Assembly: GCA_026120035.1 (NCBI GenBank)
Contig: JALRME010000042.1
Location: 1 to 64,000, forward strand
Length of the DNA: 64,000 nt
Origin: Coleophoma eucalyptorum
Lineage: Eukaryota; Ascomycota; Leotiomycetes; Helotiales; Dermateaceae
Direction of reading: 5' to 3'
Under the pieces are notes generated by a model that saw nothing but the letters and a program-made list of their open reading frames with translations, was not told where the DNA came from and searched no databases. Positions 1 through 42,465 of this stretch are shown in pieces. A program made the position numbers and the translations under genes. Position 1 is the stretch's first letter, and every line of letters begins with the position of its first letter.

Positions 1-167
1 TTAATTCCATTTCTCTAATCTGCAAAATCTACAACGATGGTGTTCAAGTTTTCCTGAGAGAATATAAAGGCATATTTTTGAGCTGAACGAAGCTTATATA
101 ACGTCTCTAACCATTTCCTCAAGTATTCATCCGTTGCAGCGGCGTGCACGTTGGACATCTGAATTGC

Positions 168-407
168 TAACGTCCGTCCCTGCGTGGCGAAAAACCCGGT
201 GTGCCGAAAACGACCAATAAGATCGCAAAAATCGCGAATTTTTCTCCATAATATCTCCCTTTAAACCAACCATAACAAAAAGTTTTTATATTTAAAGTTA
301 TTAATGGGTTTATTACGTTATTCCTATTAATATAGCGATTTGTGAATTTTGAAATTCGTCAAATTTTTCGGCACACCGGGTTTTTCGCCACGCAGGGACG
401 GACGTTA
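168..407. mobile_element. MITE with about 42-bp perfect terminal inverted repeats
   Basis: The segment at 168-210 is the exact reverse complement of the one at 365-407. The ends begin TAACGTCCGTCC on each strand. The 150-bp interior is A+T-rich and has no ORF. If the outermost TA is taken as the target-site duplication, the ends fit the Tc1/mariner/pogo pattern, which is an inference. Without coding capacity it would be a non-autonomous MITE of about 240 bp. Confidence 0.8.
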
Positions 408-1449
408 CATTATGCAATTTTGCGGCACCAAACGGACCCATTTTCCCGATTTCCCAAATCTTATTTTGTACTCAATGAGCCCGGCTGAATGACTTTCTTA
501 TACTCGATTTATATGTCCGATGGGTTTCTTATTCATTATAAAATGAAGCCCATCCGAGCTCCCAAGAGCAATCCATAAATTTTGTCAGGGGTCAAATAAG
601 CATACTACTACAACTTGTGTTTTAGGTAATTTAATTGCAATCTACTTTCGACAAATGGACGGATATTCTTAGAAGCCAACAACCAAAATAAATTAACCCG
701 ATTTTGGTTCCTATACATCAAATCAAATACTCCTCCCCTATCGATGGCGACACGGCTTTGTTTCCATTTGAACTTGGGGCGGCGTCTCGCTTGGCCATGA
801 GAGTGTTTTTGCCGGGAAAGCTGGAAGCTCGACGCTCGTATGCCAGGGGCCTTTTGGAGACTGAGACACGTCCGCAGGCTGACAGCAACATATGTAATAG
901 TAATGGTAGTGATGGACTTCAAGAACAGTGCTCTGGGGTTCCAAAATAGCGCTCTGGGGTTCCGATATAGCGTTACCAGAGAGGAAGTGCTTTTGGACAC
1001 AGCTGGAGCAAACTCCGGGTCGAGGTTCTTTGCCTGGGGTAAGCGGATGTCGGGAATGATATGAAAGAGAACGTGGTCTCTGGCAAGCAGAACATATATG
1101 CTGGCGTTGCATTTTCTAATTTCTAATTTCTAATACATCAGCCAAAATCCATAATTCTGTGGTAGTTCTAGGACTCACCTTTGCAAATGCTGCCTGTTTT
1201 TGCTTCCTTCCTCAATGAAAAAAATGATAAGTTTCCAACTAACTGCTTATTACGTCCCGTCTTATAACAGAACATTTTACAGGATTGTGCTCGTCCAAAT
1301 TAGAGGCACTTAAAATATTATTTAAGACGGGCCTAATTTGGGATTCCTATTTAAGCGCTAGCTCCACTTGTCTACATTTCCTATAAAACCGCCCAATCCT
1401 CACGGCGGATGCAGAACAATTCTACCAACTTCCTCCTCCTCTAGTGTCA
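408..1449. other. Intergenic stretch before the patatin gene
   Basis: Overlapping short ORFs occur on both strands here, but none shows a family signature or a convincing splice pattern. A 13-bp motif (GCTCTGGGGTTCC) is directly repeated at about 929 and 950. Pyrimidine-rich sequence precedes the ATG at 1450. Confidence 0.4.
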
Positions 1450-4400
1450 ATGAGGACTTGTAGGCATACCCAGTGGCTTGGCTTTGTCGCTCAAGATAAC
1501 GAGATCACGCTTACACGATCGAATCGTGCCCAGATCTTGCTTGAAGGTCTCTCCGAAACACAAAGTCCAAGCTTGTGTGTTCTTGTGGGGAATGTAGCTA
1601 AATTGTCAGCTCTAGCGGCGCTAGCCTCGCCTAGGATTGACAAGAAGCGGGCTGGGAAACGCCATCATGGAGAGATCCATTTACATATCGAGGCTGGAAG
1701 CTCGTTTAGCGAACGGCCCGTGCTTTTTGCTGACGGAGACTTTGCCTTAACAGATACATATAAAGCTGTGTTGACAAGTGACTGCCACGAGATCACTAGA
1801 TTCGGTCTGCCACGATTGAGGGATGCGGTACCAGCGCCGTATGCCCACCACACCGCCGACGGGCTTTACAACGCTCTAAGGCCGTTCACAGATGTTTTCT
1901 GCCTCTTTGCTACTGACTTGGGCGGGGTGGAGCGAATTGCCAAAACTCTCGGCGGATGGATGGAAATAGACCATATTGCAACAACAGTGCCCAGTGCTCC
2001 TAACCCCCACCTTCTTATTGTCACTGATTCACCCAACTTAAATGCTTCCGAAGATACAGAGCGATTTCGCGAGCTGCTCCGACACGAAACAAGTCGGGAG
2101 GCTACAGACTTCTTTGCTTCCATCGAGATCGTAAATCTACTGCCATCGAGAGACGTCTCAAGTGAAGCACGTCACCGCAAGCTCAAGGAGTGTCTCCTGC
2201 ATGCCTCAGACCAAGTCAGAGCCCGTCGAGTGGAGATGCGGATGCTTTTTTCAGCCCAACATTTCAGTGTTCTTCTTGATGAGGCGATATCCCATTTTGG
2301 AAGAAGCATTAACGAGCCTTTCAGCTTTCTTCAGGCAGCCCGACGCTCCAATCCGCCACCTGAAGATCTAAGCTATCATCTAGGAAATTTATTGACCAAG
2401 GTCCAAGGACCTAACGATCTTCGAAATTTTGCAGTGCCTCTCATTGCGTCAAGTCTCCTTCTCGATAGCTATCCGCCGGATATGCACTGTAAGTCCACAC
2501 TCATTAGACCAGCGCTAGCTAATGGCAAGAAAGTGTTCAACCCATCAGATGTCTTTCATACTCTGTATAGCGAGCCCTGCTACGATGCATGCAAGAGAAA
2601 TATCTTGGCCCAACAAGAGTCGATGCCTATGATAACTCTGTCAGGCTTGGTCAGTATGATTGAACAGGAATACGTTGCTGCATTCACAACCCTTACTCGA
2701 AGGACAATAAATACCTCGGTCGACATTCACCGCCAGGTTTTACTTCGATTAGATGCAGAGTGGCTATCTATTCTGTCCGAGGATACTTGCTTTGTCTGTC
2801 TGCGGAGAAGGCCTCAGTATACTATGCCTTGTAGTCACTGTATTTGCGAGAACTGTGTCAGAGTATTTGGGAGACGTAGTAAGGATAACCCGTGGGTGTT
2901 TGAGATTGACTCTTGCTTTTTCTGTGGTGCCGAAACGTCTGGGATCGATGTGAAGGTGCTTCCTAGGACTGCGGGAACCCGGATCGTAACATTTGATGGT
3001 GGTGGGGTGCGCGGCTTAGCAACTCTACAGTACATGCAACTTCTGCAAGAGAGAATAGGGCTACCTATTTCAATTCAGGAACACTTTGATGTAGCATACG
3101 GGACAAGTTCTGGTAAACAATCTCGCTCGTGATAAGATTGAAACAGCTAATAGTGCTAGGGGGCATAATCGTTCTCGCTTTATTCGTCAATGGCTGGTCT
3201 GTTGGGAAATGTATTGAAAGCTTCGAACGCCTGGCCAAGCTTGCGTTCCAGCCAAGGCACTCCTCATGCATACCCATACTCTCGCCGCTTGTTAACCTTA
3301 TAGTATCCTACTTTGCGGACGGGCGATATCCGGCGGAAAATCTCGAGGCTGCCTTGAAGGAGGCTTTTGGTGACGACCGAAGTATTCTCGACTGTTCTGA
3401 GGCTACCGCAACCGGTACCAAGATTGGTCTTCCAGTAACCACAATTCGCGACACATCAACCTGTGTATTTACTAACTACAACGGAATTGGTCATCGGCCA
3501 CAGGGATGCGGTAATATCATCCCCAACTCATCTCTGCATTGCTCATGTTATTAGGCTACCATGTTTTGCGACCACATAATGGGCTAGGCCAAGTTCCATT
3601 ATGGAAGATGTAGGTGACCTGTGACCGGTAGTTCCGAACACGTTATTAACAGAGAGCAGTGCCAGGTGTGGCTCCGCTGCGCCTTCGTAGGTCATCCCCA
3701 CTCTATGGTACTATCCACTCACGTAGTACAGTTACTTCAAGCCGAAGCATATCGATGGCCTGGGAACATTTCAAGATGGAGGGCTCCGACAGAATGATCC
3801 ATGCAATCTGGCTTTACAGGAGGCGGCTGCAATCTACCCCCCAGGGGATAGACCGAGTCTAGTCCTCTCACTAGGCACTGGGGCAGCAATGCTAGATGAT
3901 CCACCCAGGATGTCTCCCACGCGTGGACTCTTCCACGACGGATTTATACCCCGGTTAATCCGTGCGTTCAAGTCCTCACTAGGCAGCCTCGAGAGCCATA
4001 AATTCAGAAGCCATATCTTCAGCAGTCGTCAAGGCTCTGAGTCCAAGAGCCAGTACTTCCGATTCGATATCGCCTTCAACGGGCCGGAACCTAGTCTAGA
4101 TGACGTAACGCAGATGGATCGGCTTAGAGCGGCTGCACGATCCACGGTCGAGGGATCACGAGAGCTCGATAGACTAGCTAGGTGCCTTGTCAGTAGTCTC
4201 TTTGTCTTCGAACTCGAATCGATACCCCAGAAGGAAAACAACCTATATTCCTGTATAGGCTCTATCACTTGTCGTCTGAGCAGTAACTCAGCAGCTCTTA
4301 CTGTTCTGCTTGACCAACTAACAAGGAGCTCGGCCAAGCTTTTGTGCCAGGATCAAGTGATAATGGAGTTTAAGCGTGCTACCCTTCCCGTAGGCGAAGG

Positions 4401-4653
4401 TCGACTTCATCTTAAAGTTCGTCTCCCCGTTGTTAGTCTCGATGCTCAGTTCTCCATCCAACTTCAGGAAGGCTCGTTGAAAGCATGCAACATCAGCGGT
4501 TCTCCTTTTACAATTCGATCGCTTGTAGCAGCTCAAGAATTAGATGCATACTTTGGAACAGCAGATCATGTGAAACGCAAAAGGGCACAGTGTACTACAT
4601 TTTCTTCTCGAAAAAAGGCAAAGGCTACGGCTAGAGGTTATAGGATAGACTAG
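1450..4653 (+). CDS. RING-finger patatin-like phospholipase (PLP)
   Basis: Reading across four introns (3113-3159, 3511-3554, 3610-3656, 3687-3731) gives 1006 residues. A Cys/His-rich RING-like finger (CFVC, CSHCICENC, CFFC) lies at about 440-485. The patatin domain follows: DGGGVRGL anion hole near 516, GTSSG nucleophile (Ser about 553, split by intron 1) and QDGGL catalytic Asp after intron 4. The SLGTG motif also remains. Patatins hydrolyse acyl lipids and this one keeps its catalytic dyad. The tail ends in a basic, Lys/Arg-rich segment that may act as a nuclear signal. A start at ATG 1450 was preferred to the upstream in-frame GTG. Patatin-like genes are frequent Starship cargo and participate in fungal allorecognition in some systems; that role is inferred here. 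A diverged C-terminal remnant of a paralogue lies at 32640-32880. Confidence 0.85.
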
Positions 4654-4938
4654 AATTGGCGTTCTCCCAATGTCAATCGGAAGGCGGTCAGAGGTTGTCC
4701 TTTACTCCACTTTGTAAGTTAGCTTAGTATGACAATTCTAAATGCGATGGAGCTTTTTAGGGGAAGGGTTCTTATCACTCGCCTCCACAATCTTAGAATC
4801 TGAGTGAGCGATGATAATAATCTCCTTTAACTTACACATTCTGATATTTGCTCGATAGTGATCCACACGACTCACACGTAAGTTATCATGTCACCTGTCC
4901 TTAACCAATCAAGGGTGATATAGAAGCGCTCCATATGT

Positions 4939-6589
4939 CTAGCTTGAGGTATCATCATTGCTACGCTTCCTACTGAATAAGACTGTGGATGTCTTAGCCT
5001 CCGACAAAGAAGAGAAGCAGGTGTCTGCTAGAATTAAGTCTACTGTCAAGCGTTTGGCAGGGTCCCATATTAACATCTGTCCCAATAGAAATTCGACAGT
5101 TCCCGAGGGATAACTTTGCAAGTCTGATAGAGTGGTTTTATACTCGCTCTGTGAATCACGGACATTTTGCCATTTCAACCGTCCTTCTGTAACAAAAAGA
5201 CCAAGTCCAAAGATGCCGCATGCCCACACGTCGACAGCAGGACCGTATTTCGATGTCTCCATTTCGGGGGCTAGGTAGGGAATAGTCCCTATAGTACCCG
5301 GCTTTGGGTCGCATGATTGAGCTTTGATAGTATGGCCATAGTCTAGGATGACGGTGGTAATCTGTTCGTGTGAGCAGCTGACGATACCTAGATTACTCGG
5401 CTTAATATCCCGGTGTATAAAACCTGCAGAGTGAAGAGCTTGGACACCTAGAAGGATCTGACAGAAAGCTGACAATCGGACTGGTTTAGGAGGTACATGC
5501 TCTCCGAAAGTTGTTCGAGCAAACGGGGTGTACAAGATTACGACTCTCTCGGGTCTAGCAGTGAAGTGATAACGTTCATCTTCTTCATCCGTGGGGCCTC
5601 CAAACCACCGATCTCCACGCTCATAGTGGACGCCTTCATAGTGGAGGATATGTGGCTGAATGGCAAAGTTCAGCACCAGTAGCTTAAAGCATGAATTTCA
5701 GACTCACATGATCTGGCAGAGCTCTGAGTAATTCAACCTCTTGTGCAATTGCACGATGGGAATCACGAGTTCGTAGGAGAAACTTGGCAGCACCAGCAAT
5801 GCCCGTCTGGGTGTGTTTTGCGGCGCTAACAGTACTATACGTTCCCTTACCGACCGTTCCTCTCACTATCCAATCCCCAAGCCTAGTATCCCAGGGTGAC
5901 GGGCTCGCTGCAATGTCCGGTGCTGGTGGAGCGGAATTAAAGTAGTTACGAACAAATCCACGGAGGCTCCGCTGATACTCTTCTGCATCTCCTGGGGCGA
6001 AAGTAAGAGAATAGCACAGCTGCCCAAAGTATACTCGGGTTTTTTCTTGAGTAATAACCCGCTGGCCATCAGTAAAATTTTCATCCTCGAATTTGACTAC
6101 AGGGAGTCGATCACTGACAGTTTTGAGTATGAGGTTGCCGTTCTTGTCAAAGTAAATCCGGACGTGTCTTCCAGCGACTTCGTACTTTGTTTTAGGTAGC
6201 GCCAACTGAATATCAACACCACCATTTGGCTTGGTACTTTTACTTCCCCATCGACCGACCCCTAAAAACCATCCTAGAGCCGGAATATACGGGAGATTCT
6301 CAAAGGAAAACTTGTAGTATATTGTCATCGCTGCCAGTGTAGCATCAGTCTCAGCATCGGCGCCGGACGCTTCTACATTAGACTCCGTCTCACTAGGATT
6401 ATTCTCGGTCGCTTCGTCTATAATACTAATTCCTTGTCGCTTTTGGGTTTCTGAGTTGCTAGCTTCCAAAAACATGAAACTTGCAGCATGATAATAAACA
6501 TCTTTCTTCGCATAAACATCTAGAAAAGCACGCTTGGCTTTTTCATTTTCTGGCGTCAAGCGAGCAAAGGATTTGTTGACAGAAGACAT
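4939..6589 (-). CDS. FHA-like domain plus Ser/Thr protein kinase
   Basis: Two exons (5708-6589 and 4939-5655) joined over a 52-bp phase-0 intron encode 532 residues. The N-terminal half (about 120-210) resembles a forkhead-associated domain (a GRH motif followed by beta-strand-like segments). The kinase has a glycine loop (GKGTYSTV), an AAK lysine, an HRDIKPSN catalytic loop and an APE motif. The metal-binding triad is DYG instead of DFG, which is unusual but not necessarily inactivating. Combining an FHA-like domain with a kinase recalls Rad53/Cds1-type checkpoint kinases, but similarity outside the kinase is too weak to name it. Its 3' end converges on the patatin gene, 285 bp away. Confidence 0.8.
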
Positions 6590-6931
6590 TTCATAACAAT
6601 GAAGATGGTTACAGATAAATACGGAATGAAAGTACCTTGATATATGTCGGGGAATCGATCATCTTATGCTTTTCATCTTGACATCTTCACAAACTTGCTA
6701 TGGGTTGGCGCGAGTTTCAGCGGAAGCCAAAGCGGTTATTTGATTGGCTACAATGTAACGTGACTTGGAGATAAGCGCTGAGTACTGTAAAACTGGCAGG
6801 CTGGCTAGTAAGCGCCTGAGAAGCTCGGTCATGTCATGGATTCGCGACACGTTCCACTCCTAACTACAATTCTTATCGCGACCTTGCACTGTCTTTACAG
6901 ATAACTCAACTCATGTCTTTACCTCCTAGAA
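6590..6931. promoter_or_regulatory. Divergent intergenic region
   Basis: This 340-bp gap separates the starts of the minus-strand kinase and the plus-strand basic protein, so it must hold both promoters. No individual motif could be assigned. Confidence 0.4.
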
Positions 6932-7435
6932 ATGTTGCAACCTTCGATATCTCCTGTGTCTACGCCCACTGAGGGGACGTTTCCTGAGCTCGGCTTTGGA
7001 TTCGAGATGGAGCAGACCTTGGAAAGGATAGTGGAGGATAAGACATCCAAAGAAGAGGCCCGGTTTCGCAAATACAAGCCCTTGGGGATGAGCAAAGACG
7101 ATGCTAGGCGACAAACTCCCGACGAATTCCGCGAAGAATATTTTCAGTTCCTACAGAGGGAAGTACAGGATGTACATACACCTACACCTTCGCCCTCACC
7201 AGATCCCGAACCGAAGCGGACTACTCTGTCTCGAAGAGCTCGTGCAAGGTGTGCAAGGAGGAAGGTTGAACGAAATATCACAAATGCAGAGCATAGGGCA
7301 GCACCGAAGGCTAGAAAGCGCGGTTCGAAGGGCTTGGCGCAGCCTAATCATGGGTTACCATCAACTCATCATATGAAAACAAGACATCATACTCGATACA
7401 ATTTAAGGAAAATCGTACGAACACAGGCAATGTGA
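6932..7435 (+). CDS. Hypothetical basic protein
   Basis: A single uninterrupted ORF of 167 residues. The first half is acidic and helical (EFREEYFQFLQREVQDV). A Pro-Thr-Ser linker (TPTPSPSPDPEP) leads into a very basic C-terminal half (RRARARCARRKVER and KARKRGSKG) that would suit nuclear localisation or nucleic-acid binding. I do not recognise the family. It diverges from the FHA-kinase gene and may share its promoter region. Confidence 0.5.
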   Translation: MLQPSISPVSTPTEGTFPELGFGFEMEQTLERIVEDKTSKEEARFRKYKPLGMSKDDARRQTPDEFREEYFQFLQREVQDVHTPTPSPSPDPEPKRTTLSRRARARCARRKVERNITNAEHRAAPKARKRGSKGLAQPNHGLPSTHHMKTRHHTRYNLRKIVRTQAM

Positions 7436-8451
7436 TAAAGCAATTATGTTATCGCTCTGTCTAACTTCGCCTGGAACAAGACACCATGACCTTTCCCACC
7501 TATTTCCGATTAGCCCCGAGACCCTGATGTTCATAGCACGTATATCCAAGCATACTAGGGCAGTGATACTAGCAGTCCTATACCTTAGGACAGGTTTCGT
7601 CTACATTACGATCCTTGCGCAGACATCATCTAGGAAGGTGCTAAACGCATCCCCTGCGATCCATTTCAGGACGGGTGCAAGAGCCGGAGATTGGCAGAGG
7701 TACATTCACGACCTACTTATACCAGCCAATAATGTGTAATTCACCGGCTCATTCGGAGGCTTAGAGCAGGCTGGCTTAGCATTGCATGAGGGACACTCAT
7801 CCTGATCGAAAGAGTTCTTCTCTGCTTAGGAATATCCTGTTTTGATATCCTTTGTGGTCAATAGTTGTGGAAGAGCCTTTCTCTACTCTGGAAGCAGATG
7901 ACTGTTGGTCATGTGGCTGGTTCTATATTTCTTGCAGTGTACCATGCGAGTTCACACTTTTGTGATTACGACAGCCTGTGGTTCCTCCATAGCTGGAATT
8001 ATTATGACAAATAAATATCCGCTAGGGTATTGTTATTATTCACTGGTCTGCCTTTGCACTGCATCTCCCGAAATCGCATCTGGGCAGTCACGTTTGTTCA
8101 ACCAACTAATCGCTTTTGTCCTTATGCATGCTCTAAGAAAATCCATCCAACCAATAACATGAGAATCAAATAAACAGAGCTTATCGGTAGAGTATCAAGA
8201 AGCACAAAAGTGTTAAGATAAGGCTGCGCTGATGATTGGCTCACATATCAGAAATGGTCACCTGCCCATGTACTGCTGCCTTGTCACGTTGTACAAGATT
8301 TCTATCGCCGCTAAGATCCGCCGTATGCTGATTGTATATCTTACATCAAAGTTGACCAGATTTCTTCTCAAAAAAACATTCGGAGATGTGAGTGTTAGTA
8401 CTACAAGAATTGGTCAAAGCTTACGGATATACTTTCAGGGAAATCAGCTCT
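7436..8451. other. Intergenic stretch, no supported gene
   Basis: Short plus-strand ORFs (7446-7739, 7905-8162, 8232-8471) lack family motifs. The last may contain an upstream exon of the next feature, because a good donor (GTGAGT, about 8387) and an acceptor (TTTCAG, about 8440) precede it. Confidence 0.35.
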
Positions 8452-8961
8452 ATGCTATGTCAACCGAATAAAGAGATACCAACCTCCGCGCATGCAGAAG
8501 CATCAGCACTTCAAGAAAAAGGTCCTTTGGTCCTTCTTACGCCTATCTGCCACTCATCCAGTCAGGATAATACAGATCCGTTCGAGCCACTTGGACGTAA
8601 GCTAGCTACTCGATATAATCGCGTCCGCCAGGTGCCTTATTGGCAAGGAGTTGGATTTACATCTACCCATCTCGGATTCATCTCTCGAGGGGCTACTATC
8701 GTGTTGTGTCTAATAGTTACACTGCAATATCCTCTAGAAGTTGATGTTATTTTGCAGATGCTCCTCTGTATCGGGGGAAAGCCATGTGTCATCGTGTTAT
8801 GTACTACTCAGGATGATTCAAATTGGACTTTCGACATGGTTAGGCAGATTGTGAACGATTCGGAATTACTTTATCCAATTATAGAAATCGTGGACTATTC
8901 AGCACATGTACTAGGAGACATAGCAGCTGTTATACTCGATAGGGTGTATCAGGCTGACTAA
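8452..8961 (+). pseudogene. Orphan C-terminal domain resembling NagZ-type GH3 enzymes
   Basis: The frame open from about 8440 to 8961 encodes roughly 170 residues. The order of elements (PLVLLTP strand, FEPLGR helix, THLGFISRG, IVLCLI strand, GGKPCVIVLC strand, IVDYSAHVLGDIAAVIL) resembles the C-terminal Rossmann-like domain of fungal or bacterial GH3 beta-N-acetylglucosaminidases. There, an AxVVIV...GKPVVVV...YDYTPPALEALAEVL pattern closes the protein. No catalytic GH3 barrel is present upstream. I therefore read it as a detached domain or gene fragment, though a small real gene with an upstream exon is possible. The family assignment is from memory and is tentative. Confidence 0.4.
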
Positions 8962-9379
8962 ATTAGCCCACCAACGGGGATTTGGGCTTCTATAAGGTCT
9001 GAGAAAACCTCGGCGAAATGTGATCTCAATTATCCGCAATCGACTCGTCTCAGGGACTTCCGCTAAAGAGTTGATCAGACCGCAATGGATCCTGTTGAAA
9101 TGGAGGGCACGCTCCAACCTACCAAGGACAAATTCAAGACGTCCAGCTCGCCACGCTTCAACGATCTCGCTCTCGCTTGTCTCACCAATGACATAAGGAT
9201 ACTACTAAGCGCCTGTATGGTGATCGATTTGGACATTCGACGTGGTGGGTAGGGTGAGGCTGAGCGTAGCCGCGGGGAGGAACGTCTTGAAAGTTCAGTA
9301 TGATCAACTCTCCTGCTGCACCTTGTGGTGGAAATTTACGTGCTATAAACACTCCTTAACCACAGGAGCCGATATAACA
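8962..9379. promoter_or_regulatory. Upstream region of the TPR-NLR gene
   Basis: No credible ORF. It contains the presumed promoter and 5' leader of the NLR starting at 9380. An in-frame GTG at 9242 extends the ORF but is not a credible fungal start. Confidence 0.4.
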
Positions 9380-12300
9380 ATGGCATACACACCAGATACA
9401 GTCAAACTTAGCGGCCTGAACATCTGGTCAAGCGAGGCTACGACTGGCCCGGCACCCGTTGTCGAGTGAGCTAAGCTGCCTCTGAAATCAAACTCCGCTG
9501 ACCCCACTTAGCATTATCGCGGTCCAAGGGCTAGGCGCTCATCCATATTACACGTGGGTGAAGAAGACACGATGTTCAGCCCCGAACGAAACGAAGTTCA
9601 AGGACAGGGTGAAATTTTGGAGAAATAAGAAATCGCGAGACGGCGAAGGAGACTGCGGAGAGGACAGGGTAGAAGAGTGTATGTGGCTGCGAGACTTGCT
9701 TGTGCCTTTGTTTGGGGGTGCACGGATCGCTAGCTACAGCTACAAATCAGATTGGAGAGATCGTGAGGTCAAGACTAGTCTGAGGGAGTGTACTGAGCAG
9801 TTCTTGAATATTTTATGCCAGCATAGACAACATGCAAGCGTAGGTATTCGGCGGACAAATTGACGGCTTATCATGGTTGCTAATTGGAATAAACAGGAAC
9901 GTCAGAGACTACTTATATTAATTGGACATAGTCTTGGAGGTCTCGTTATCCAGCAGGTATACACTTGTCTAGGTATTAGTAGACATACATTACAACATCA
10001 CTAATTTGGTAGGCGCTTGTGGATGCCGTTCACCAGCAGGCGTTCACCGACCTACGCCTTTCTATAGCAGGTGTTATCTTTCTCGGTGCCCCTTTCCTGG
10101 GTAGCAACCTAGCCAGTGTCGGAACGCGGCTGGCTCAGCTCACAGATCGTGACTCGACAATATTGAAGTTGTTAGAGAAGGATAATCAAATTCTCCACGC
10201 ACTATCGAGGGATTTTTGGGGCAGTTATAACAAGTGGGATCTTGTATGCTTTTATGAGAAGAGAGAGGTAGATTATGGGTTTTTAAAAGCGAAGGTTAGT
10301 CGATTTACCTCTGCGAGAAACCCGTTAATTTACTTTTTAGATTGTGGGTTCGCAGTCAGCTAGCCTGCTTGGAAAGCAGATGTTATTCCTCGATACCGAT
10401 CACTCTGGACTTAATAAGTTTAGTGGAGAGGATGACGAGAACTTTCTTCTAGTTCTACCTGAGATTCGAAGAATGGTTCAAGGTGGACCCTCGATTGTAG
10501 CGGACCGTCATTGTGTCAAAGGTATTACTGCGATCTGGTTGTCTACTAAATCGAGACGGAAACTAACCTGCCCAATCTAGATAGCAGCGCTACGAGCCAT
10601 GGAAATACTCACTGGATGGTGCCCCGTTCTGTGAATGATCTATTCACTGGACGTCGTGAAATTCTACTTCGAATACAGAAGGCTATCCGTTATGATCAGA
10701 AATCACCCCTGAACAAGCAGAAGAGGTTCGTTATTACAGGGATGGGAGGACAAGGCAAGAGCGAGATTTGTTTACAAGTTGCAAGCCAAATACGAGAAGA
10801 GTACGTTTTATATGCCTTCGATATTACCTATATTACTCAGCTAATAATAATCTAGGTTCTGGGGGATCTTCTGGGTCGACGTCAGCCAGGCCTCTACTGC
10901 TAAGAGCGACTTCATCGCTATTGCAAAGCTGCTTGGGCGGCCAGCCGAGAGCGTTCCTGATGCTCTTCAGGCTCTCGCAAGTACGAAGCAAAGATGGCTC
11001 CTTATCCTTGATAACGCCGATGATCCGAACTTTGACTACCAAGTTTACTTTCCATCCGGAGCTCAAGGCACCGTTCTTATGACATCTCACGTATCCGAAT
11101 GCAAGCGATATAGCCCAGAACAATTCGAAGCTCTTGTAGGTCTCGAAGATAAAGATTCTAAAGAACTTCTACTTAAAGCAGCAAATATTCCCGAAGAATC
11201 ATGGCCATCTTACACCGATCAAGCCAAGAAAGTTATCCAGATTCTAGGATCGCATACGCTAGCAATAATCCAAGCTGGAGCATATATTGCGAAAGGTCAC
11301 TGCCAACTCTATGAATACCCTCAGGTCTACCAACGGCAACGAAAACGGCTTTTAAAATTTCGGCCTAAGCAAGCGCAATCAAGGTATTGCGATGTGTACG
11401 CAACCTTCGAAGCATCTGCCGAGGTGCTAGAGCAGTCTACAAGCGAAGCTACAAAGGATGCTCTATCTTTACTTGCGACCTTATCAATGCTAGGTTCTAG
11501 CTTTCTTCCTCTCCAAATATTTCAGAGCGCATGGGATGGTAGCAGAGAAGTCCTCGGTACTAGCCGTGAAGTGATAACTGATGCTATATCTCAAAGTCAC
11601 GTTTCGTAATTACCGGGCTTTTTGATAGTAGAGGGCGACGAATGGGATGCTTTCCGTCTTATTGAGGCTAGCTCTAAACTAGTCTCACTCTCCTTGTTCA
11701 CACGGCACGATATCGACGGATTAATAGGAGTATCGATGCACCTATTGACCCATGCCTGGTCCAAAGACCGTCAAAACCCAGAGCAACAAGAGGTATCTTG
11801 GGTGGTTGCTGGGTGCGTTCTTGCACTTTCTCGATCGAACTCTGTTATGTGGCAGACCCAAGAGAGACGCCTTTTACCGCATATACAGTCTTATTTAGAT
11901 ATCAAGCTTAGAAAAGCACTTTTATTAGGGCCCGGAGCTACAATCATCCCAATTCTTCTTAGGTGCGGCTGGACGTTGCTAGACATGCGACAAGACTGGA
12001 GGCTTAGACAACTCTTAGAAGACATGTTTGCCGGACTCGACATGAACCCCGAAACCCCGTCGAAAGATTCTCTCCGGCTATATGATCTCCAAGCAAGGAG
12101 CTTGTTGAATACTGGAAGGAATAAGGAAGCCGTCGCGCTGCTCGAGCAGGTCGTCCAGATCCGCGAGACAACGCTGGCCGCAGACCACCCACACCGGCTC
12201 GCGTCGCAGCACAACCTCGCTGGAGCGTACCAGGCGAATGGGCAGGTCAAGGAGGCCGTCGCGCTGCTCGAGCAGGTCGTCCAGATCCGCGAGACAACGC

Positions 12301-25870: not shown

Positions 25871-26010
25871 TTTAGGAACAGTACTCGTATTAGCTATCGC
25901 CCACTCTATAGTGAGATCTACTGAACCTTACTGATCCAATGTGTAGAATGGCTGACGAGCGCAAATAGGCATGTAACCAATAACCTCCACTTCCACCCGA
26001 CTTAATCAAG

Positions 26011-32203: not shown

Positions 32204-32639
32204 GTGTGCAAACTTGATTCTTCAATCGCCTTGTTAACAGGTGATGGATCTACAAGTACGTTGCAAAGTATTCAGAGCAGGCATAAGTTATACACTAAAA
32301 CTAACCAGGAATACAGGCTTCATGCAACAATCCCTGTAATAATGCCTGCAGGGGCAAACGCTCGCGACAGTTCTTATTTAAGCTGTCGGTTTAGACTTCA
32401 CGCATTCTATAAGTGGGTCACGCATGTCTAATCGAGGCCCGCTTTCACGCATCGGAAGTTGGGCATGTGACTAGCAGCGTAAACAACCGTACGCACGTGC
32501 AACGTCCGTGAGTGAATAGGTTCACATCAAGCACTACTGAGAAAGCGAATGCCCTCAGCAAATATTGCAGAACTCTCCGAGCCAACTTGAACTTGACGGG
32601 CCGGTGTTTGAATTGTCTACTCAATATTAAATGAGACCA
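32204..32639. other. Intergenic
   Basis: No supported gene. Short ORFs only. Confidence 0.35.
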
Positions 32640-32880
32640 CTACTCTATATTATCATCTTGATAAAAATGTTTTCTTGCAAGGCCAACTGCTTTGTAAGCC
32701 GGTGAAAGATAGTACTTTCCTTGATGAGAACGGACACTTTCGCCTTAGAGTCTGTATTAGTAGCCTCAGCGAGACCTCCCAGATATCTATCCAGCTTCAA
32801 GAGGGTTCTGCTCAGCCGTGCAATATCAGCGGGCCACCATTCTCCATTCCCTCGCTTCTCATTTCAAGACACTAGAGCTG
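32640..32880 (+). pseudogene. Relic of a patatin-like gene C-terminus
   Basis: The translation of about 32670-32875 includes SIQLQEGS, CNISG and PFSIPSL. This parallels the last 80 residues of the RING-patatin protein (SIQLQEGS, CNISG, PFTIRSL at about 4450-4530). The upstream patatin domain is missing. The DNA is clearly diverged (roughly 70% by eye), so it is an old paralogue fragment and not a recent copy of the 1450-4653 gene. Confidence 0.75.
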
Positions 32881-33313
32881 AAGCAAGTTATCGATGCTAC
32901 AGTTACTTGCAAAAGCTGTTTCACCCCTTGACTCACTACATCAATTTAAGGTGCAATTGTTAGATGGATGTGGCTGTGTCGCAGTAAATATCGGCTTACG
33001 GAAGATTCGCTAACTGTTAGAGACCATTCCAGGCTGCCAGCAAGATGCTGGTGGTCTTGAGAAAAAAAGCTCCACTTTCGAAGGGAAAGCCAGGAATGAT
33101 TCATCTAGATTGCATATAGTACTTCGTATGTCAATGCCTGCAAAAAGAGCACCGCAGTAGTTAGAAAGCAACAGCTTATCACATTACCAGGTATGACATC
33201 ACACTAGCTACTGTAGAATATTCTGGAAATTCTCATCCAACGATATAATCACACCCGCTCCCACGTCCTTCTAATAACAAAGTTATTAAAAGAAAGAGTA
33301 AGTTAGAGATTAT
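32881..33313. other. Intergenic
   Basis: The 3' flank of the WD40-NLR gene. No feature recognised. Confidence 0.35.
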
Positions 33314-36300
33314 TCAAATGAAAGGGCTTGTATCAAACCTGAAGACGTACACCTGGCCAGAGTAGCAGCCTACCGCGATACAGCTCGCATGAATACTATG
33401 ACAAATTGGCCGGTAGCTTGGGGGAAGCCACATAATATCATTACCATTGCATCGTATCCAGCTTTCATCTCTACTAACTGAAAGAATTGTGGATGACCAT
33501 AGAGAATATAGACTAGAGCTGGTAGTATGCTGATGGCCCTCGGGCCTCTGCAGCGGCGTGCCTGCTGCTGCGTCCCAGAGCCGCACCGTGCCGTCGCCGG
33601 ATCCCGACGCCAGCTGCTTGCCGTCGGGGCTGAAGGCCACCAATGAGACCGTATCCTCATGGCCCTCGAGCGTCTGCAGCGGCGTGCCTGCTGCTGCGTC
33701 CCAGAGCCGCACCGTGCAGTCCATGGATCCCGACGCCAGCTGCTTGCCGTCGGGGCTGAAGGCCACCAATGAGACCGCACTCTTATGGCCCTCGAGCGTC
33801 TGCAGCGGCGTGCCTGCTGCTGCGTCCCAGAGCCGCACCGTGCAGTCGAAGGATCCCGACGCCAGCTGCTTGCCGTCGGGGCTGAAGGCCACCGACCAGA
33901 CCGGATACTTATGGCCCTCGAGCGTCTGCAGCGGCGTGCCTGCTGCTGCGTCCCAGAGCCGCACCGTGCCGTCGCCGGATCCCGACGCCAGCTGCTTGCC
34001 GTCGGGGCTGAAGGCCACCGACCAGACCGTATCCTTATGGCCCTCGAGCGTCTGCAGCGGCGTGCCTGCTGCTGCGTCCCAGAGCCGCACCGTGCCGTCG
34101 TCGGATCCCGACGCCAGCTGCTTGCCGTCGGGGCTGAAGGCCACCAATGAGACCGCACTCTTATGGCCCTCGAGCATTTGCAGCGGCGTGCCTGCTGCTG
34201 CGTCCCAGAGCCGCACCGTGCAGTCCATGGATCCCGACGCCAGCTGCTTGCCGTCGGGGCTGAAGGCCACCAATGAGACCGCACTCTTATGGCCCTCGAG
34301 CGTTTGCAGCAGGGGGCTCCAGTTTCTGGGAACCCGTGGAAGTTGGCGAATCCAGGGCGGAATGTCCCGCACAAACATTTGTCGAACAACGCTTTCTTCT
34401 GGAGCGAATATCAGGCTCGAAGTGTAGATTTGCAGTGGCGCCTGTTCAACTGCAGAACGAGACTGCCGGAGGGTTCGAAGTGCGTCGTGCAGCAGAGTGG
34501 TACAGGACGCCACCTTGCTAGGTTCGTGTCTCCTTGCTCTTGCTATTGTTCGTTCTAAGACTTGTTCTAAGACTTGTAATGCTCTCATTCCTACGTCGAC
34601 CTGCCCTAAAAGACTCAGTGCCTCAAACCAGTGGAGAAGATGAGAGCGAAGAAAATGATCGATGACACCTCCGTCTACGAAATAGGCTGGAAGGACTAGG
34701 CTACAGGCAGTATCATTGGCATAGCGGCAGAGATGGTCAGCCCAGAAGCAACAAGCATAATCAATCTTCCTAAGTTCATTACTAATGGTAGCCGACCGTG
34801 CCAGTGCCCCAGGAGCCTTTAATTTGCAGATGTCTTTCTTCAAAACCCTTGCCATCACACCCAGTGATAGCTTTGCAGCATTGTCATGTTCTCCAGGGAT
34901 TCCGGTTGGAAACAGCTCCTTGGCCGCGTCAGAAACGAGATAGTCCTTCGCCGACTGATGAACAAAATAGACACGGTTTTGTCGTATGATAAGAAATGAG
35001 CCGCATCGGTCAATCAACTCTATAGCGTCATTGATAGTAGGAACTTCGGCTATGACTAGTAGTTCTTCTAGTGATAATGGCCGGAAAGCTATACTCATTG
35101 AACGAAGTAGTTGTAAACAGGAGCTTTTGTCCTCTTCATCGACACTATTGATCTCTTTCAGCATCCTGGCATAAAGAGGCTGCAAGCCCTTGGGTAACTG
35201 CTTAAGAGTGTCGAGTGCTCTTCCACTTCTGGCCCTAGAGAGGCTTTTGCAGGCCAAAGCGACCCACAAAAAGGTTGAATCTGCTCGAGCACTGAGGACC
35301 TTTTCGACTTTATCCTGGAAACTGGATTCGTAACCCTTTCTTGTAGCAAGCTCCTGGACCTTGCGCTGGATAAAAATACGAACAGCATGAGCGATGTGCG
35401 CTTCATTAAGCTCTAAGCTGAGCATTTGACTATGTAGCTTTAGGATATCCGTAATTCCGATATAATTGCGGCTGGAGAGGAGCCATTTAACTGGGGAGGT
35501 CTTGGCGTACTGTGATATGAGATTGAGTAACTGATCCCTCTCTTCGCTAGCACTGCACTCGTCCAGCGCATCAATGACCAGGACCGTCTTCGGACTGCGC
35601 TCCAACAAGTGCTTTAGGATGTCGAAGAGCGCAAATACAGCGTTGGACCCATCAAGCTGGTGCTTGTGCGTCTTATAGCTCGAACAAAATGTCTCGCCGA
35701 GTTGTGGTTGATTCATCACGAATTTCCAGATTAGCCCACGAAGAATGGAAGCGGCATTGTTGAGTTGAAGGTCAGTATTCTGACAAAAGAAGAATGTGAT
35801 AGTCCAGCCTTTGCTTTCCCGCCGTCTCGAAAGTTCACGGATCAACGCTATAATCAGCATCGTCTTGCCCTTTCCGGGATCACCGTGAATCCAAAGAAGT
35901 GGCTGAGTATTATTGCATAGCCAGTCTTGAAGCTGTTGGTTCTCGAGGACCCAGGCGTAACAATCTCGGAGCAAAGCGTCTTTGGATTTCTCAATTCTTT
36001 CCATGTCAAGGGCAGGGTTTGTGGCATGCAGCTGATCGAGGTAGGTCTGCGTAGCCTCGTCGATTTGATGACTCTAGACATATCAGTTCTGCTCAACTAG
36101 AAGTTCGATTATGACTTACACGGTGCTCCGACTGCGATAACATATCCTTGATGCGATGCAACGCCTGACTATATGCTGGCGAGCTCTCGTGCTCGAACTT
36201 GATAATTGCTGAGTGATCCTCAGAAACTGGATGCTTGCTCTCTATTTCATCAGGTAATCCTAGCGTAGCACTTTCCATATGCGTAGCTATCACGGGAGAT

Positions 36301-37521
36301 CCAATGCGTGCAAATGACCCGTCATCCTTCTGTACAATGATGAGTTTGGGAGCTTTAAGGCATCAGTACCATCACTTACTTGAACCAGCCGGCTTGTAAG
36401 GGTGGTCTCATAGAAGCTCGCAATTTGACAATCTTGCTTAATGATATTGACAAAGCTGTCAAGACTCTGGCGCCAGTGGGATTCGTCGGTAACCTGATTA
36501 AGCCGGGTCTGCGATGTATTAGGGAACGTTACCACATTTAACATGTCTTCGACATCCATTCCACGATGTGGAACGGCAAAAAAGAGGAGTCCCCGGGTCG
36601 CCTTCAGTATGCTAGAGCCTTCTTGTTGATCTTTGACTAGAAACTGTATACATGAGCAACTATAGTCTTGAGAGACTTAAGAGGGGGGAGCGTACACTCT
36701 TTAGGATATTACCGCCAAAGCTATGAGCTACGAAGATGAGGGGGCGATCTGGGTCCTGTAGCAGTTAGCATAAATAATAGGATGCACTAAGCCAAGCCTA
36801 GCAATATCCATCAACTGACCTTATTTCGCGCGAGTCTTAAGGCGTTTATAAAGGCACGAGCGTAATCCAGTACATGACCGGTGTCAATCCCGGTGAGTGC
36901 AGATCTGTGTCCATATATCATGACTCTTGCATGTGGGAGGTCGTGTTGTAGGAAATGCCTCGGCCACATACGTTTCTGCCCAGACTTGGCCGCCCATGAG
37001 CCGTAAGCGTGGCTTCCAATGCCTGAGATGAAGACGATACTAAGAGGTCAGCATGATCACTAGGAACATGTAGGTCGCCTTACTCGGCATTCGGTTCTCC
37101 TTGGATGGGATAGATTTGGGTGAGGTCAAGAAACTCGTTATCGAAAGCGAGTTCCCGATTCTTAGACTGCGGAACTAAGCATGTCTTGCGCGGTCTTTCC
37201 AGCTCGGAGAGAAAGGATGGGAGGAATAGGAAATCGACAAGAGCAACATAGGTGTCTGCGCTGGTACAGGACGGTACGATCGTGAGGTCGTTGATGCAAT
37301 CGATGCCATCGGGCGAATGCATCTTGACGACGCCGATGACACACTCCTTAGCTTGCTCGGCATCGTTGGCTCGAATACTGCTGACGCGAACAGTGAAAGG
37401 CTTTCTCGTTTTTATCATAGAATCTGTCGTTCCAGGTCCGTTAGTACGAAGTCGCGAGCAGGAGTTACCACATACCATTATGCAGCGATGAGTTCAGCTC
37501 ATGCAACTCTAAGAGACTCAT
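33314..37521 (-). CDS. NLR: SERAC1-like hydrolase + NACHT + WD40 (HET-E/D architecture)
   Basis: Seven exons (37476-37521, 37084-37423, 36820-37039, 36696-36755, 36380-36643, 36120-36329, 33314-36073) join without a stop to 1299 residues. The N-terminal alpha/beta-hydrolase shows FISGIGSHAYGSW, then the nucleophile elbow AHSFGG and LLFFAVPHRG. The NACHT ATPase has P-loop HGDPGKGKT and Walker B LVIDALDEC. Six 42-residue WD40 repeats and a decayed seventh close the protein. This is the STAND layout of fungal heterokaryon-incompatibility receptors, here with a hydrolase in the effector position in place of a HET domain. It appears intact. It is cytosolic by type and is predicted to oligomerise when the WD40 part senses a non-self ligand. 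Confidence 0.9.
33548..34318 (-). repeat. Six near-identical 126-bp WD40-coding repeats
   Basis: Units of 126 bp encode EGHKxxVxxVAFSPDGKQLA...TVRLWDAAAGTPLQ. Differences cluster at the EGHK-SA/DT/YP-V-SL/WS positions and at the M/D/G/F-D-C/G positions. The framework codons are almost invariant. This is what is known for HET-E/HET-D-type repeats under concerted evolution and diversifying selection on the ligand face. The array is far more G+C-rich than its surroundings. Confidence 0.95.
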
Positions 37522-38540
37522 GGTGGAAGATCTGCGCGCAAATAGCTCGAGGTTGAGACGGCAGCATTGACGTGAGGATGCCCCATAAGAGATGCCAGAG
37601 CCTTGTTCCTATGCGCACACAGCAGCTCCATGGTGTAAAGGGCTACTCCAAGCGCCTTCGCGGCTGAAACGCAGGCACTTGTCATCAGGCATTGGGATTG
37701 AACTGTGGGGCTGTCGCGTAGATTCGAGAGACTAGTAGATGGCTTCAGGTAACCCAGCTTACTGAGTGCTTGGGACAAGAAGATTGATAGTAGAGAAAGA
37801 TAAGGCAAGCTCATCGTCAACTTGCCGATGAGTCCCCGCTAGGACAGTATCAAGCTTCAATCACGTGCAGTCATGGATTCTACCCCACTCTTCTTCAAAA
37901 TGACTGCTCAAACAAACTTGAGCAGGCATTACGATGTCGAGGTCCTCAGTCATATACCGTGGTATAAGATGTGGAGACGATTAAGATAGAAATATAAACC
38001 TAGAGTTTGAAACCCAGTTTACAAGGCTAAATGCAACCGTGATAGATTGATTGCTCTTTGGTGCAAGACACTATGGTATTCTGTATATTATTTTCGTACA
38101 TCTCCTCCACACCTTTCTTTCTTCGACTCCCAAGTATCATTTCATCTTCTTTCAGATCTGAGATTTACTCTACAGTGGTAACTTACCTTGATGGAATTGC
38201 AACGGTATACCCTTTCTGAACTGGGAAGGCGTCAATTCATTGCCGCGCTCGTCTGTACATGATCCTTAGTAGAGTGTAATATTGAGCAAAGCGGTTAAGG
38301 TAGTTCGATTCAGTCCTTCAAAATACTAAAGAATATAACAAAAGCACAAATTACTAGGAGCCTCAAATAAATGATTTCTATTATGGTGATCTAGGAAATA
38401 GGCTGTCTAGTTTTTGCAAAAGATTCCGTAGGTGTTCAACCTGTATAATTGCCTGGATCCAATATGTACGTCTCGGCGGATCGGACCAAAACAGTCCTGG
38501 TCTGAGCTCGCGGCCGGCCTTGGTCTTGCTTCCGTATAAT
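37522..38540. other. Intergenic between NLR and recombinase
   Basis: The NLR promoter and 5' leader should lie here. Minus-strand ORFs at 37518-37820 and 38407-38637 carry no recognisable domain; the second lies out of frame with the recombinase end. Confidence 0.4.
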
Positions 38541-40982
38541 TCAAGGTGCTTGGAGTTTTAGACCGTGTTTTCTTGCAGCGTGGTTGATAAAGTGAATCGT
38601 ACTTCCTAGGATGTCTAAACAACCGTGATATGGGCATGCTAAGGGTTCATCTGAGGTTCGGTAAGCAAGATGACGTTTAATGATATGTCTCTGAAGACTA
38701 TCAATGCGTCCATATTCATGCGTCCGCTTTTTGAGACCTGCTTCTTCATCACAGCCACAGAACGGGCAACGCATATTGCAATCCGGCTCTTGGATAACTT
38801 GCGCCTTTATTTCCTTTGATATCAATCCTCGAGAGCGTAGGATGCGAGGCTCTTGCGGACTGTCGTGACACTGTATTTTCTTTTTCTTGAACTGGTGAGC
38901 GCTTTCTTGTCGCTCACAAAGCCGAGCGAGCGCGCTAATAAGCCTTATACGGACCGCAAGGAATTCAGTCTCATCCAGACCTTCAAGGGATTGAAATAAC
39001 AAATCGACAACTTCTGTACGTTCTTCAATCTCGTACTTGATTGCTGAAGGTGTGAGCACCTCAGAAGGTACAATTCCCTGCAGCTGCTGATTTACCTCGA
39101 TTATATCGGTAGATTTATGAAACTCTTCAATGGCTTTCCGAAGTCGGGCTTCATATAGTTTGTTTCGTAGGCTGCCAATCTTGCGAAGAAATCTGTCGTG
39201 CCTTTCCCATAGATCCGTTCCTTCCGCCTCCTTTAGTGTCTGGAACCCGTGTTCCTTGATCAACTGTCTGCAAGAATCCCGTTTGTGGCAAAGATTTGTA
39301 AGCTGCGGGTCCTTACGAACCTCGAGCTTTTGTGCTTCAGTCAGTTCAACTGGTGCTTTGTCATGCCGAACTAAACGCCCTACTGCCCGAACTATGGCAT
39401 CCCTTCTAGTATGGCCAAGGTAGATAGCTTGACAGTCTCGGTCTATGAATGCTGGCATGTAGTATCGATCGTATGTGGACCTTGATCGGTGGCTCATAAT
39501 CTGGTTGCATTCTGATGGAGTAAGTTCTTCTAGAATATTGGATCAGCAGTGGAAGCACCATTCCAAGAACTGCACAAACCTGTCAAGTTTTTGCCAGAAC
39601 CTCTTCTGATATCATAAAATTCGAGATTTTTCTCGTACCGACAGGTACGGCCGAGGCGTACGAAGTAGCGCCTATACTTCGAATATTGGATGGATTTGGT
39701 ATCAGAGATACGTACCCCACGGTCAGTGTGCTCAATATCACGAAAGACGGGACGCTCGGCCCAGATTTCGTCCCAATGAAGACGAAGACGATCCTGCCCT
39801 GGTGGAATTACAAGACTATATATCTCCTCTGGGCAAGTGAGATTGTTCTTGAAGGCCTTGTCGGCAAAAGCTAGAGATAGAATATATAGGACGACACTGC
39901 ATGAGAGATTATCCTCTTCATCATAAAATGTAAATATCTTACTAGTGACATCCACCGGTCAATTTCATTCTAGATTCTAGTGGTGTAATAAACTTACTTC
40001 CTTGACTTTCCACCAGATCTCTTGGTGTTCCTCAAGTTCAATTTCATAGTAATAGTAGGGTACTGTGCCTTTGTAGATGCCGGGAAGAGCTGGAACTCGA
40101 TATCTTTGTACAAAAGTGGTTTCTCTCCAATGATCGCTCCAGGCCGTGAAGCTGTACAGCCAGCGATCACTAGTAGGGGGGATAATTGTACGCGGAGCCG
40201 TTCATGAGGGAACTTCTGTGTATCTCGAACCCAGTGCCCATTCTGGAGCACACAGAGGTCTTCAACATATAGAGCATGTTTTTCCTTCTCAGAGTTGTCG
40301 AGTTTAAATTCTGAAGTTATCTCGGGAATGAACTGCTTTGGGTTAGTAAATCTACGATAATAAGACAAACCCCTACATTATTTAGGTCATACAATACTAT
40401 ATCATTCATGTAGCGATGTGCCTTTCGTGAATATAGCATACTAAGAGCTTTCCAGTAGGTTAGGATACTCGATTCCTTTTTCACTCTAGAGTTCCTCACA
40501 CGCCAGAAGAGATATGCTTTGAATATTGTAATCTCGCAGGCAACCAGAGTATCATCTGCATCTACATCTGCATTCATTATACCGCAGAATCTTAGAGATT
40601 GTTAGTAAACAGTGGTGGTTTCTGACCAGATCGAGGCTTACTCCTTCCACTTCCTTTCCTCTCTCTCTATCATCTCAAGGGATTTGGTAGCAAGGTTTGA
40701 AAGTGTAGGTCCGGCTTTCTCAAATTCTGAAATATTCTCTCGAATTGCGTCCCCCTCTAGATCAATAAAAGATTCGCTATTGGAGTCCAAATCTGAGTGG
40801 TAATTATCATACTCGTCATTGCTGTCAATCGTATTCCGTGTCGGCCTCTGCAGACCAGTTGCACTAGTTTGAGAGGGTATTTTCAACCGCGATACAGAAC
40901 CTATGATATTGGCCTGCATCTGTGCCTCTCGAAGGCCTTTTCGTTGCCTGTGCCGACGTGGCTGGCTTGAAGGTATACGCAT
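38541..40982 (-). CDS. DUF3435 tyrosine recombinase, Starship captain candidate
   Basis: Five exons (40642-40982, 40377-40590, 39998-40332, 39580-39941, 38541-39529) join in phase to an uninterrupted 746 residues. A disordered N-terminus precedes a DNA-binding helical part (ILTYWKALSMLYSRKAHRYM). The DUF3435 catalytic part follows: Arg in AGCTASRPGAII, the DIRRGSG region, and MSHRSRSTYDRYYMP with the presumed nucleophilic Tyr. The tail has a zinc finger (CPFCGC, HIIKRH, then CPYHGC and HAARKHG). DUF3435 recombinases are the captains that excise and integrate Starship elements, usually as the first gene at the 5' end. On this strand the element's 5' boundary would lie to the right and its cargo to the left. 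Confidence 0.88.
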
Positions 40983-41369
40983 TGGTACTTAAAGTTCTGT
41001 AAGATGGTTGAGATCACTGTTAAAAAAAGAACTTGTGATATTTGGATGAACAAGACTAGCAAGGTAAGCGTTAATGGGGAGTAGAGGCACCTGTTCTTAT
41101 AGTACGGTATCACTGGCATCAACCTTAGTGCAAGGTACTGTAGTACTACCCTATTCTAGAGCTATACATTTTAGGAGTCAATTAGAGAGATAGAAAAGGT
41201 TAGGCAGAGCAAGGGTACCTTGTAAGTTTGCTTGTGGATCAATATAATGTCTGTTAAAGCAGCAGGATCACGTGCCAAAATGCATGGTTTTAGAAGTTAG
41301 CCGAGTGGAAAAGTTGCTTAAAACAGCGGGAGGTAACCTCCTGTTTCAGGCATTGAATTCACCTAGAAG
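40983..41369. promoter_or_regulatory. Region upstream of the recombinase; candidate 5' element boundary
   Basis: If the captain reading is right, the 5' terminus lies in or just right of this interval. An imperfect palindrome (GGGAGGTAACCTCC, about 41328-41341) stands out. I cannot identify the target-site duplication without the other end or an empty site. Confidence 0.4.
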
Positions 41370-42465
41370 TAGGTAATAGTAGAAATCTAAAGTCAAAATT
41401 AAGAGTTAGAGTCTAAAGTTGAAATTAATACTCAAAATCTAAGAGATACCTCCCCTCCTTTTGCTACCCCTATATACTAGGCAAAACCCCTATACTAAGC
41501 GAAAAACCAGTGGTTAAACCAGTGGTTAACCAGTGGGTGGTTTTTCAGATTTTCAAAAAACCAGCCCATATGGGTAGAAACCAGTGGGTGGTTTACAAAT
41601 TGAAAAACCAGCCCATGGGTACCCAGTGCGCAGCCTAGTTAGCAGCGCGAAGAGGAAAACAGCACTTGTGTACACTACCTGCTCAGTATACTACTGTACT
41701 TTATATAAAAAGCTGTTGTTTTTACCGTATACTATGTAGTTCTATATGAAACTTGAAATTAATTACTTTCGAAACAGTATAATAATTAATAATAATTACT
41801 TGGTTTCTTTTTTACAGTGTTAATATAAGTAAAGATAAGAAAGATTTAAAATTAAGGGTTAAATATGTGTTTATTTATGGATTAGTATGTAATTCAATCT
41901 ATAATAGCTTAAATTGGTAAGAATTACACTGGAAGTTGCTATTGTTGAGCACGCGTTCGTCCAAACATAGGTTGATGCTACCTACTTATGTATTCGGTAG
42001 GTATGTACAGTATTGCCTAGGTATATCGTAGGTAGGGGTAAGTAGCCTATGCAATCGACAAGGCAAAATAATATGAATATTTCTTCTATACATACCTACC
42101 TATGTAGTACGTATTAGTAATATAAGGAACATTGGTCAAGTAGGAAACAATAAGATAACAATAACCAGCATTTTTTTTTAATTTTTTGAGCTTACCTCAT
42201 TTCTTAGAAAATAAAGTCTAATATATAAGTAAGACTTTGAGCTAATCTAAGACTAATCACATGCCCCTTTTCTTTCAACAATTTATATAACCTATTTTAA
42301 TAAATTTCAATCACGTTTAGTTCAGATCTAAGTTGGCTTTAAATCTAATTCAAATCGGGCTTAAGACTTAAGTCGGGTTCAATCTCTAAGTCTGTAGTAG
42401 GGCTCTAAATTATTTTTCAAGATCAAGCCTTGATTAAGCAGACCCTATCGTTACCTACTACGGTC
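41370..42465. repeat. A+T-rich decayed repeat island
   Basis: No ORFs. At 41490-41635 a motif built from CCAGTGGTTAACCAGTGGG and CCAGCCCATATGGG recurs in both orientations. The AAAGTCAAAATTAAGAG-type stretch (41385-41440) recurs at 51640-51690, and 42010-42120 resembles 50580-50690. The low complexity and TA richness suggest a transposon decayed by RIP or similar. Confidence 0.7.

Follow-up and report, generated by a model that had tools for sequence, protein, structure and literature searches.

Starships are giant cargo-carrying elements of the Pezizomycotina with a DUF3435 captain, as described in the excerpts of four papers on which we draw (PMC12153272, PMC12134995, PMC9594970, PMC12506042). 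In one of these, as excerpted, a size filter of at least 15 kb is applied, and among 20 Starships of Aspergillus fumigatus 19 have flanking direct repeats of 2-12 bp and 18 have terminal inverted repeats (PMC12153272). We analysed a stretch of 64,000 nucleotides from the helotialean fungus Coleophoma eucalyptorum, hereafter the window, which corresponds to bases 1-64000 of contig C38 (286,766 bp) in a genome of 45.26 Mb and 101 contigs. C9, C13, C19, C38, C61, C83, C91 and the like are our labels for contigs of this one genome, within which all copy and end comparisons were made. The window very probably contains a Starship-type element that reaches from position 41382 leftward at least to 23.2 kb.

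The captain, its position and orientation, a sharp end that recurs at several loci, an insertion site inside a repeat and cargo common to several copies together fit a Starship. The original prediction had taken the left two-thirds of the window for the interior of such an element. This was borne out in part, namely for the captain end at about 41.4 kb and the cargo further in, joined by an end found at four loci and an 18-kb second copy; a supposed patatin relic was not found.

The captain-proximal end and its target repeat

The features at this end are as follows.

41027..41382: captain-proximal element end, common to C61, C19 and C9; its 23-mer is also found, with 3 mismatches, on C13
41329..41341: palindrome GGAGGT-A-ACCTCC, intact in the window and C61, altered in C19 and C9
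41361..41374: inverted repeat ACCTA-GAAG-TAGGT, identical in all four ends
41374..41382: terminal 9 bp, TAATAGTAG
41383..41638: target, the right part of dispersed repeat R1, 97.7% identical to a copy on C50

When window 38400-41500 served as the query, C61, C19 and C9 matched up to 41382 and none matched beyond it. They terminate in ...CACCTAGAAGTAGGTAATAGTAG or near variants, followed by flanks that differ, such that one element end with the same last base is present at four loci (the window included). The boundary, previously placed somewhere within 41.0-41.4 kb, is refined to 41382 by this common end. Allowing up to 3 mismatches, the terminal 23-mer occurs at 5 places genome-wide, and its reversed control at none.

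Identity to the window, in the order C61, C19 and C9, amounts to 24, 23 and 22 of the last 24 bp, to 36, 33 and 21 of the next 36 bp inward, to 48, 45 and 43 of the 60 bp lying 61-120 bp inside, and to 46, 49 and 31 of the 60 bp lying 121-180 bp inside. Over all 60-bp blocks at 61-300 bp inside, it ranges across 42-48, 35-49 and 22-43 of 60, respectively. The last 63 bases of C61 are identical to the window, and the remaining terminal alignment is about 77% identical (229/298). Judging by its sequence, the inverted repeat at 41361-41374 is a candidate binding site for the captain.

From about 41374 rightward, the window is matched by the multi-copy repeat R1, which is dispersed in at least 153 match pieces over the genome. 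Uninterrupted copies have ...AAAATCTAAGAGAAG before the junction and AAATCTAAAGTC... after it; in the window, ...GGTAATAGTAG precedes AAATCTAAAGTC. All 15 copies read with the junction motif continue through the junction and have GAGAAG before it, which places the element end within R1 and allows the uninterrupted copies to be used as a proxy for empty sites within the genome. Before the junction, 10 of the 15 copies carry TAAGAGAAG, which equals the element's TAATAGTAG at 7 of 9 positions, and the other five have near variants (6/9 equal in four, 5/9 in one). A 7/9 match to the terminal 9 bp is reached by 1 of the 692 9-mers of one 700-bp R1 copy and by 118 of the 63,992 9-mers in the window. 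The right flank of the C9 copy is single-copy in the genome. For the C61 insertion, C72 was considered as an empty site and rejected as not clean: the right flank on C61 is 93-94% identical to C72, but the similarity starts 83 bp past the junction.

The captain gene and its proposed action

The captain was modelled as follows.

38541..40982, minus strand: captain, DUF3435 tyrosine recombinase, five-exon model, 747 aa, with a C-terminal C2H2-like part
40982-40642, 40590-40377, 40335-39998, 39941-39580 and 39529-38541, minus strand: captain exons

The predicted DUF3435 gene at these coordinates holds up. The 747 codons of the model contain no stop, its introns are short and plausible, and PF11917 (DUF3435) matches the last exon with an E value of 1.2e-30. 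A TAA inside another PF11917 match, at 39991-40266, lies in intron 3 of the five-exon model. The ATG at 40982 is 400 bp from the edge at 41382, and transcription runs away from that edge.

Among 60 homologues, the nine best are 45-50% identical over 83-99% of the captain and come from Botrytis, Trichoglossum, Pseudogymnoascus, Cadophora, Hyphodiscus and Geoglossum. Captains have an active site of the R-Y-R-Y type. In an alignment of the captain with 27 of the 60 homologues, the catalytic residues R249, K290, R410 and Y442 do not vary across the 28 rows, Y407 is kept in 27 and H432 in 23, and the window captain has all six. With no stop, plausible introns and these residues present, the window captain is intact-looking at the level of its sequence. 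When its last exon was compared by sequence with solved structures, five matches up to E 1 were obtained, with no recombinase among them; the best, to a zinc finger (E 0.0039), is a weak similarity.

The 15 exon matches that a PF11917 profile search gave in the genome are spread over 8 contigs, with the strongest in the window. Further DUF3435 matches lie on C81 (a 417-aa frame), C46 (a 582-aa frame with one stop in the match), C64, C90 and C19. A search for DUF3723 gave 18 matches in the genome, distributed over C72, C46, C52, C61 and C48. Other Starship-like elements are therefore likely in this genome, given DUF3435 on those contigs and DUF3723 on five.

We propose that the captain would bind the palindromic terminal motifs, excise the element and insert it anew at a short sequence similar to its own end, of the TAAGAGAAG-like kind found in R1. 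The NLRs (NOD-like receptors), the patatin-like enzyme, the chitinase, the kinase, the MADS fragments and the rhodopsin-like protein would be carried along, and the copies on C61, C9 and C19 would be captain-deleted derelicts.

Related copies and the extent of the element

Two long segments of the window have second copies elsewhere in the genome.

23227..38262: cargo segment common with C61:6431-21345, gapped, its main blocks 86-96% identical
1..15323: left module, collinear with C91:264-18196, blocks longer than 0.8 kb being 81-91% identical

Counting the terminal alignment, C61:6431-21695 follows the order of window 23227-41382 as far as the common end, 15.3 kb on C61 corresponding to 18.2 kb of the window; both lengths lie above the 15 kb of the size filter. 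Identity is 94% over 23227-28565, 96% over 28682-33634, 89% over 34057-37507, 86% over 37503-37952, 91% over 38184-38262 and 81% over 41027-41382. Missing from C61 is window 38263-41026, that is, the entire captain gene. The C61 cargo has stops in several frames, and both rhodopsin frames and the main NLR frame are stop-free. On C9, a 184-bp piece of the captain is kept and 40224-41239 is gone; on C19, about 300 bp of the element are matched. C83 (39 kb) is a more distant relative, with a diverged captain that has a premature stop, a GH18 frame (57%, with stops) in inverted orientation, the open reading frame (ORF) adjoining GH18 (73% over 81 aa, one stop) and a MADS-like ORF (36% over 66 aa). 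A check for repeat-induced point mutation (RIP) over 14294 sites, from the window to C61, counted 372 C-to-T plus G-to-A changes vs 261 T-to-C plus A-to-G, with CpA favoured; the RIP-type bias is mild and not decisive.

The left module is matched by C91 (22,590 bp) at 91% over 406-4655 and 9124-12725, at 84% over 4952-8014 and at 81% over 13032-14483. C91 lacks 8015-9123 and the insert at 168-407, and has about 3.9 kb extra near 4.7-4.9 kb. Window 13976-15873 is also matched by C52. The insert at 168-407 is a 240-bp miniature inverted-repeat transposable element (MITE) with perfect 43-bp inverted repeats, missing at the matching point of C91. Its full-length relatives listed are on C72 (two), C52 and C48, and partial or terminal inverted repeat (TIR) pieces are on C52, C65, C84, C78, C72 and C91.

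The left half, ending ...CTAAGAGAAG, of the R1 copy on C50 has no match in window 1-41373, so the far end should lie beyond the start of the contig, if the insertion was simple. Together with the second copy on C91 of much of 1-15.3 kb, this leads us to favour a long element, one that probably passes window position 1 and hence exceeds 41 kb. That 1-15.9 kb belongs to the same element as the captain end appears plausible and is the least certain part of this reading. It is our guess that C91 followed by C61 represents one second copy split over two contigs. Position 1 of the window is also the first base of C38, and the contig offers no sequence to the left of it. At 11 contig ends, the outermost 400 bp were examined and contained no telomere repeat arrays. 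The C20 start, the C46 end and the C83 end are the same sequence; with three contigs ending alike, it appears that a shared repeat, and not a telomere, is where the assembly breaks off in some cases.

Several observations weigh against our reading of the region. Neither the window nor C61:1-62000 yielded a far end, flanking direct repeats or inverted-repeat ends, and at plausible left-end positions in these two stretches none of the 10-mers from the terminal 30 bp was found again. Stray terminal 10-mer matches occur at window 5445, 40049 and 62484, C61:5378 and 13047, C83:1352 and C19:6530, where a rough estimate of chance gives 2-3 per 64 kb. Genome-wide, an R1 half ending at the junction was not seen among the matches listed. 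Several insertions or deletions of kb size set the C91 copy apart, and window 15.9-23.2 kb has only four matches elsewhere, of about 90-125 bp each. At 23227, where the collinearity with C61 is lost, there is nothing recognisable as an element end, so that 1-23.2 kb may belong to another unit. In a 33-row tree, whose homologues bear no captain-family labels, the captain sits on a long branch and in no well-supported clade; it groups, without strong support, with homologues mostly of what we take to be Leotiomycetes and Geoglossomycetes.

Alternatively, the mobile unit would span only about 18.2 kb (23227-41382), with 1-23.2 kb being unrelated accessory DNA or a neighbouring element. Collinearity with C61 sets in precisely at 23227/6431, the two copies being unrelated in sequence left of this point, and the second copies of the left module are on other contigs, C91 and C52. 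Nevertheless, we rate this shorter unit as improbable. Position 23227 was tried as a left end and discarded, with no R1 and no flank motif in common; the flank there is not the R1 left half that a simple insertion into R1 needs, and what adjoins 23227 in the window and 6431 on C61 is unlike the captain end, just as the two flanks are unlike each other. Moreover, C91 followed by C61 would match a single, longer second copy lying on two contigs, although this link is conjectural. Less probable still is that the DUF3435 gene stands alone in accessory DNA rich in repeats, the shared stretches being segmental duplications and not products of transposition. Such solo genes are more usual than captains in elements, as stated in the excerpted part of PMC12134995, and the contigs sharing sequence with the window include the DUF3723-bearing C61, C52, C72 and C48. 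However, segmental duplications have no common end of the kind found here: four copies stop at the same base with different flanks, conservation is concentrated at that end, which has an inverted-repeat motif, and it interrupts a repeat that is continuous at other loci.

A Starship could also have come to rest. It is unlikely, but to be taken seriously, that the window copy is an immobile remnant whose far end was lost or rearranged and whose captain is a relic: the far end is not in hand, the sister copies on C61, C9 and C19 lost all or most of the captain, and the C83 captain has a premature stop. Against this, the assembly simply ends at position 1, and the window captain is free of stops, with plausible introns and its catalytic residues. 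The captain-less copies on C61 and C19 might be non-autonomous Starships that the window captain mobilises in trans, to which we give a rather low probability. C61, without a captain, keeps its 63 identical terminal bases beside DNA of about 77% identity, as expected if selection preserves ends and not the captain, and the inverted-repeat signal common to the ends is likewise expected under mobilisation in trans.

Cargo, neighbouring DNA and described Starships

The cargo genes were annotated mainly with Pfam, in a scan that covered 49 of the 577 stop-to-stop frames (at least 45 aa) of the window, such that small or split genes were possibly missed.

1387..4650, plus strand: putative patatin-like phospholipase, multi-exon, with a weak RING-like stretch before it
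4942..6658, minus strand: protein kinase over two frames, the first above the Pfam cut-off and the second below
9486..12743, plus strand: NB-ARC-TPR NLR, with IIAVQGLGAHPYYTW in its N-terminal part
15265-15840: 2EXR fragment (Pfam)
25984..26565, plus strand: SRF/MADS-box DNA-binding fragment (Pfam)
27136..28551, plus strand: GH18 chitinase, with a diverged relative on C83
28561..29283, plus strand: ORF adjoining GH18, no Pfam family, also on C61 and partly on C83
29551-29940, plus strand: second MADS fragment, just under the Pfam cut-off
31221..32200, plus strand: fungal rhodopsin-domain protein, two frames (Pfam)
33317..36073, minus strand: NACHT (NPHP3_N)-WD40 NLR, with more frames upstream to about 37.05 kb

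The two NLRs of the original prediction are present, one of the NB-ARC-TPR type at about 9.5-12.7 kb, where NB-ARC scores 20.7 bits (below the cut-off of 23.5) and TPR is strong, and one of the NPHP3_N type. The TPR part of the former (12123-12725) and the WD40 part of the latter (33533-34310) contain near-identical 126-bp repeats. The number of units in the WD40 array is 6.2 for the window and 2.0 for the C61 copy; such repeat arrays mark fast-evolving recognition receptors. The patatin-like gene can be retained as well: its Pfam match, at 19 bits, is below the cut-off of 27.7, but it has the motif DGGGVRG at 2995, followed by GTSSG and, in a later frame, DGG. The additional patatin relic was not confirmed: this was the only DGGGxRG site in six frames, and C38 had no PF01734 match at E<=1e-3 among the 14 matches listed, in a search that gave scores to top candidates only. 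The absence of DUF3723 noted in the original prediction also holds, with none of the 18 genome matches on C38. The kinase, the GH18 chitinase, the rhodopsin-like gene and the MADS fragments come in addition to that prediction. For GH18, the best homologue is 56% identical, in Cadophora, and others are from Pseudogymnoascus and Botrytis (best 120 of 227). Within 18513-19188, 79-bp inverted arms (97%) enclose a 17-bp minisatellite array, together a small element.

The DNA to the right of 41383 was taken as host or older accessory DNA. It comprises R1 and other repeats, a weak fatty acid (FA)-hydroxylase/epimerase match and a major facilitator superfamily (MFS) gene, then DUF7025, HET and MUG190 (Pfam). 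The MUG190-like gene (61524-63998, plus strand) is 71% identical to a Hymenoscyphus and 70% to a Hyaloscypha protein over 96%, and one Hyaloscypha protein is 75% identical over 67% (best 120 of 910 proteins), in keeping with a helotialean host. Dispersed repeats in inverted orientation at 42466-42865 and 50313-50551 flank the FA-hydroxylase/epimerase match and the MFS gene, and are also present at the C81 start and on C46, C9 and C19.

This locus contributes an element of a kind already known, a Starship whose captain looks intact and which has captain-less relatives, from a helotialean fungus. One genome sufficed to fix one end and the likely target motif nearly to the base, and NLR-type receptors, a patatin-like gene and a chitinase adjoin that end. 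The presence of captain-bearing beside captain-less copies with conserved ends makes mobilisation of Starships in trans directly testable; that copies with near-perfect ends might be so moved is the part most worth following.

As in the Starship superfamily, the captain is at one end, reading inward from 400 bp off the edge, with NLR and patatin-like cargo, insertion in a repeat and captain-less sister copies; unlike in that superfamily, just one end is known here and DUF3723 has no match on C38. Sanctuary of Bipolaris sorokiniana, likened here by description and not by sequence, has its captain about 350 bp from the edge and several haplotypes of one element, as here, with a size of 170-196 kb and a known 6 bp direct repeat in the excerpted account (PMC12506042). 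The Prometheus-family element 'Gnosis h1' of A. fumigatus likewise has GH18 cargo, by itself a weak likeness, as excerpted (PMC12153272). The copies on C61, C9 and C19, which lack all or most of the captain, resemble the derelict, captain-less Starships in the excerpted part of PMC12134995; unlike the derelicts described there, the C61 copy shares its genome with a sister whose captain looks intact, and has kept the terminal 63 bases identical to it.

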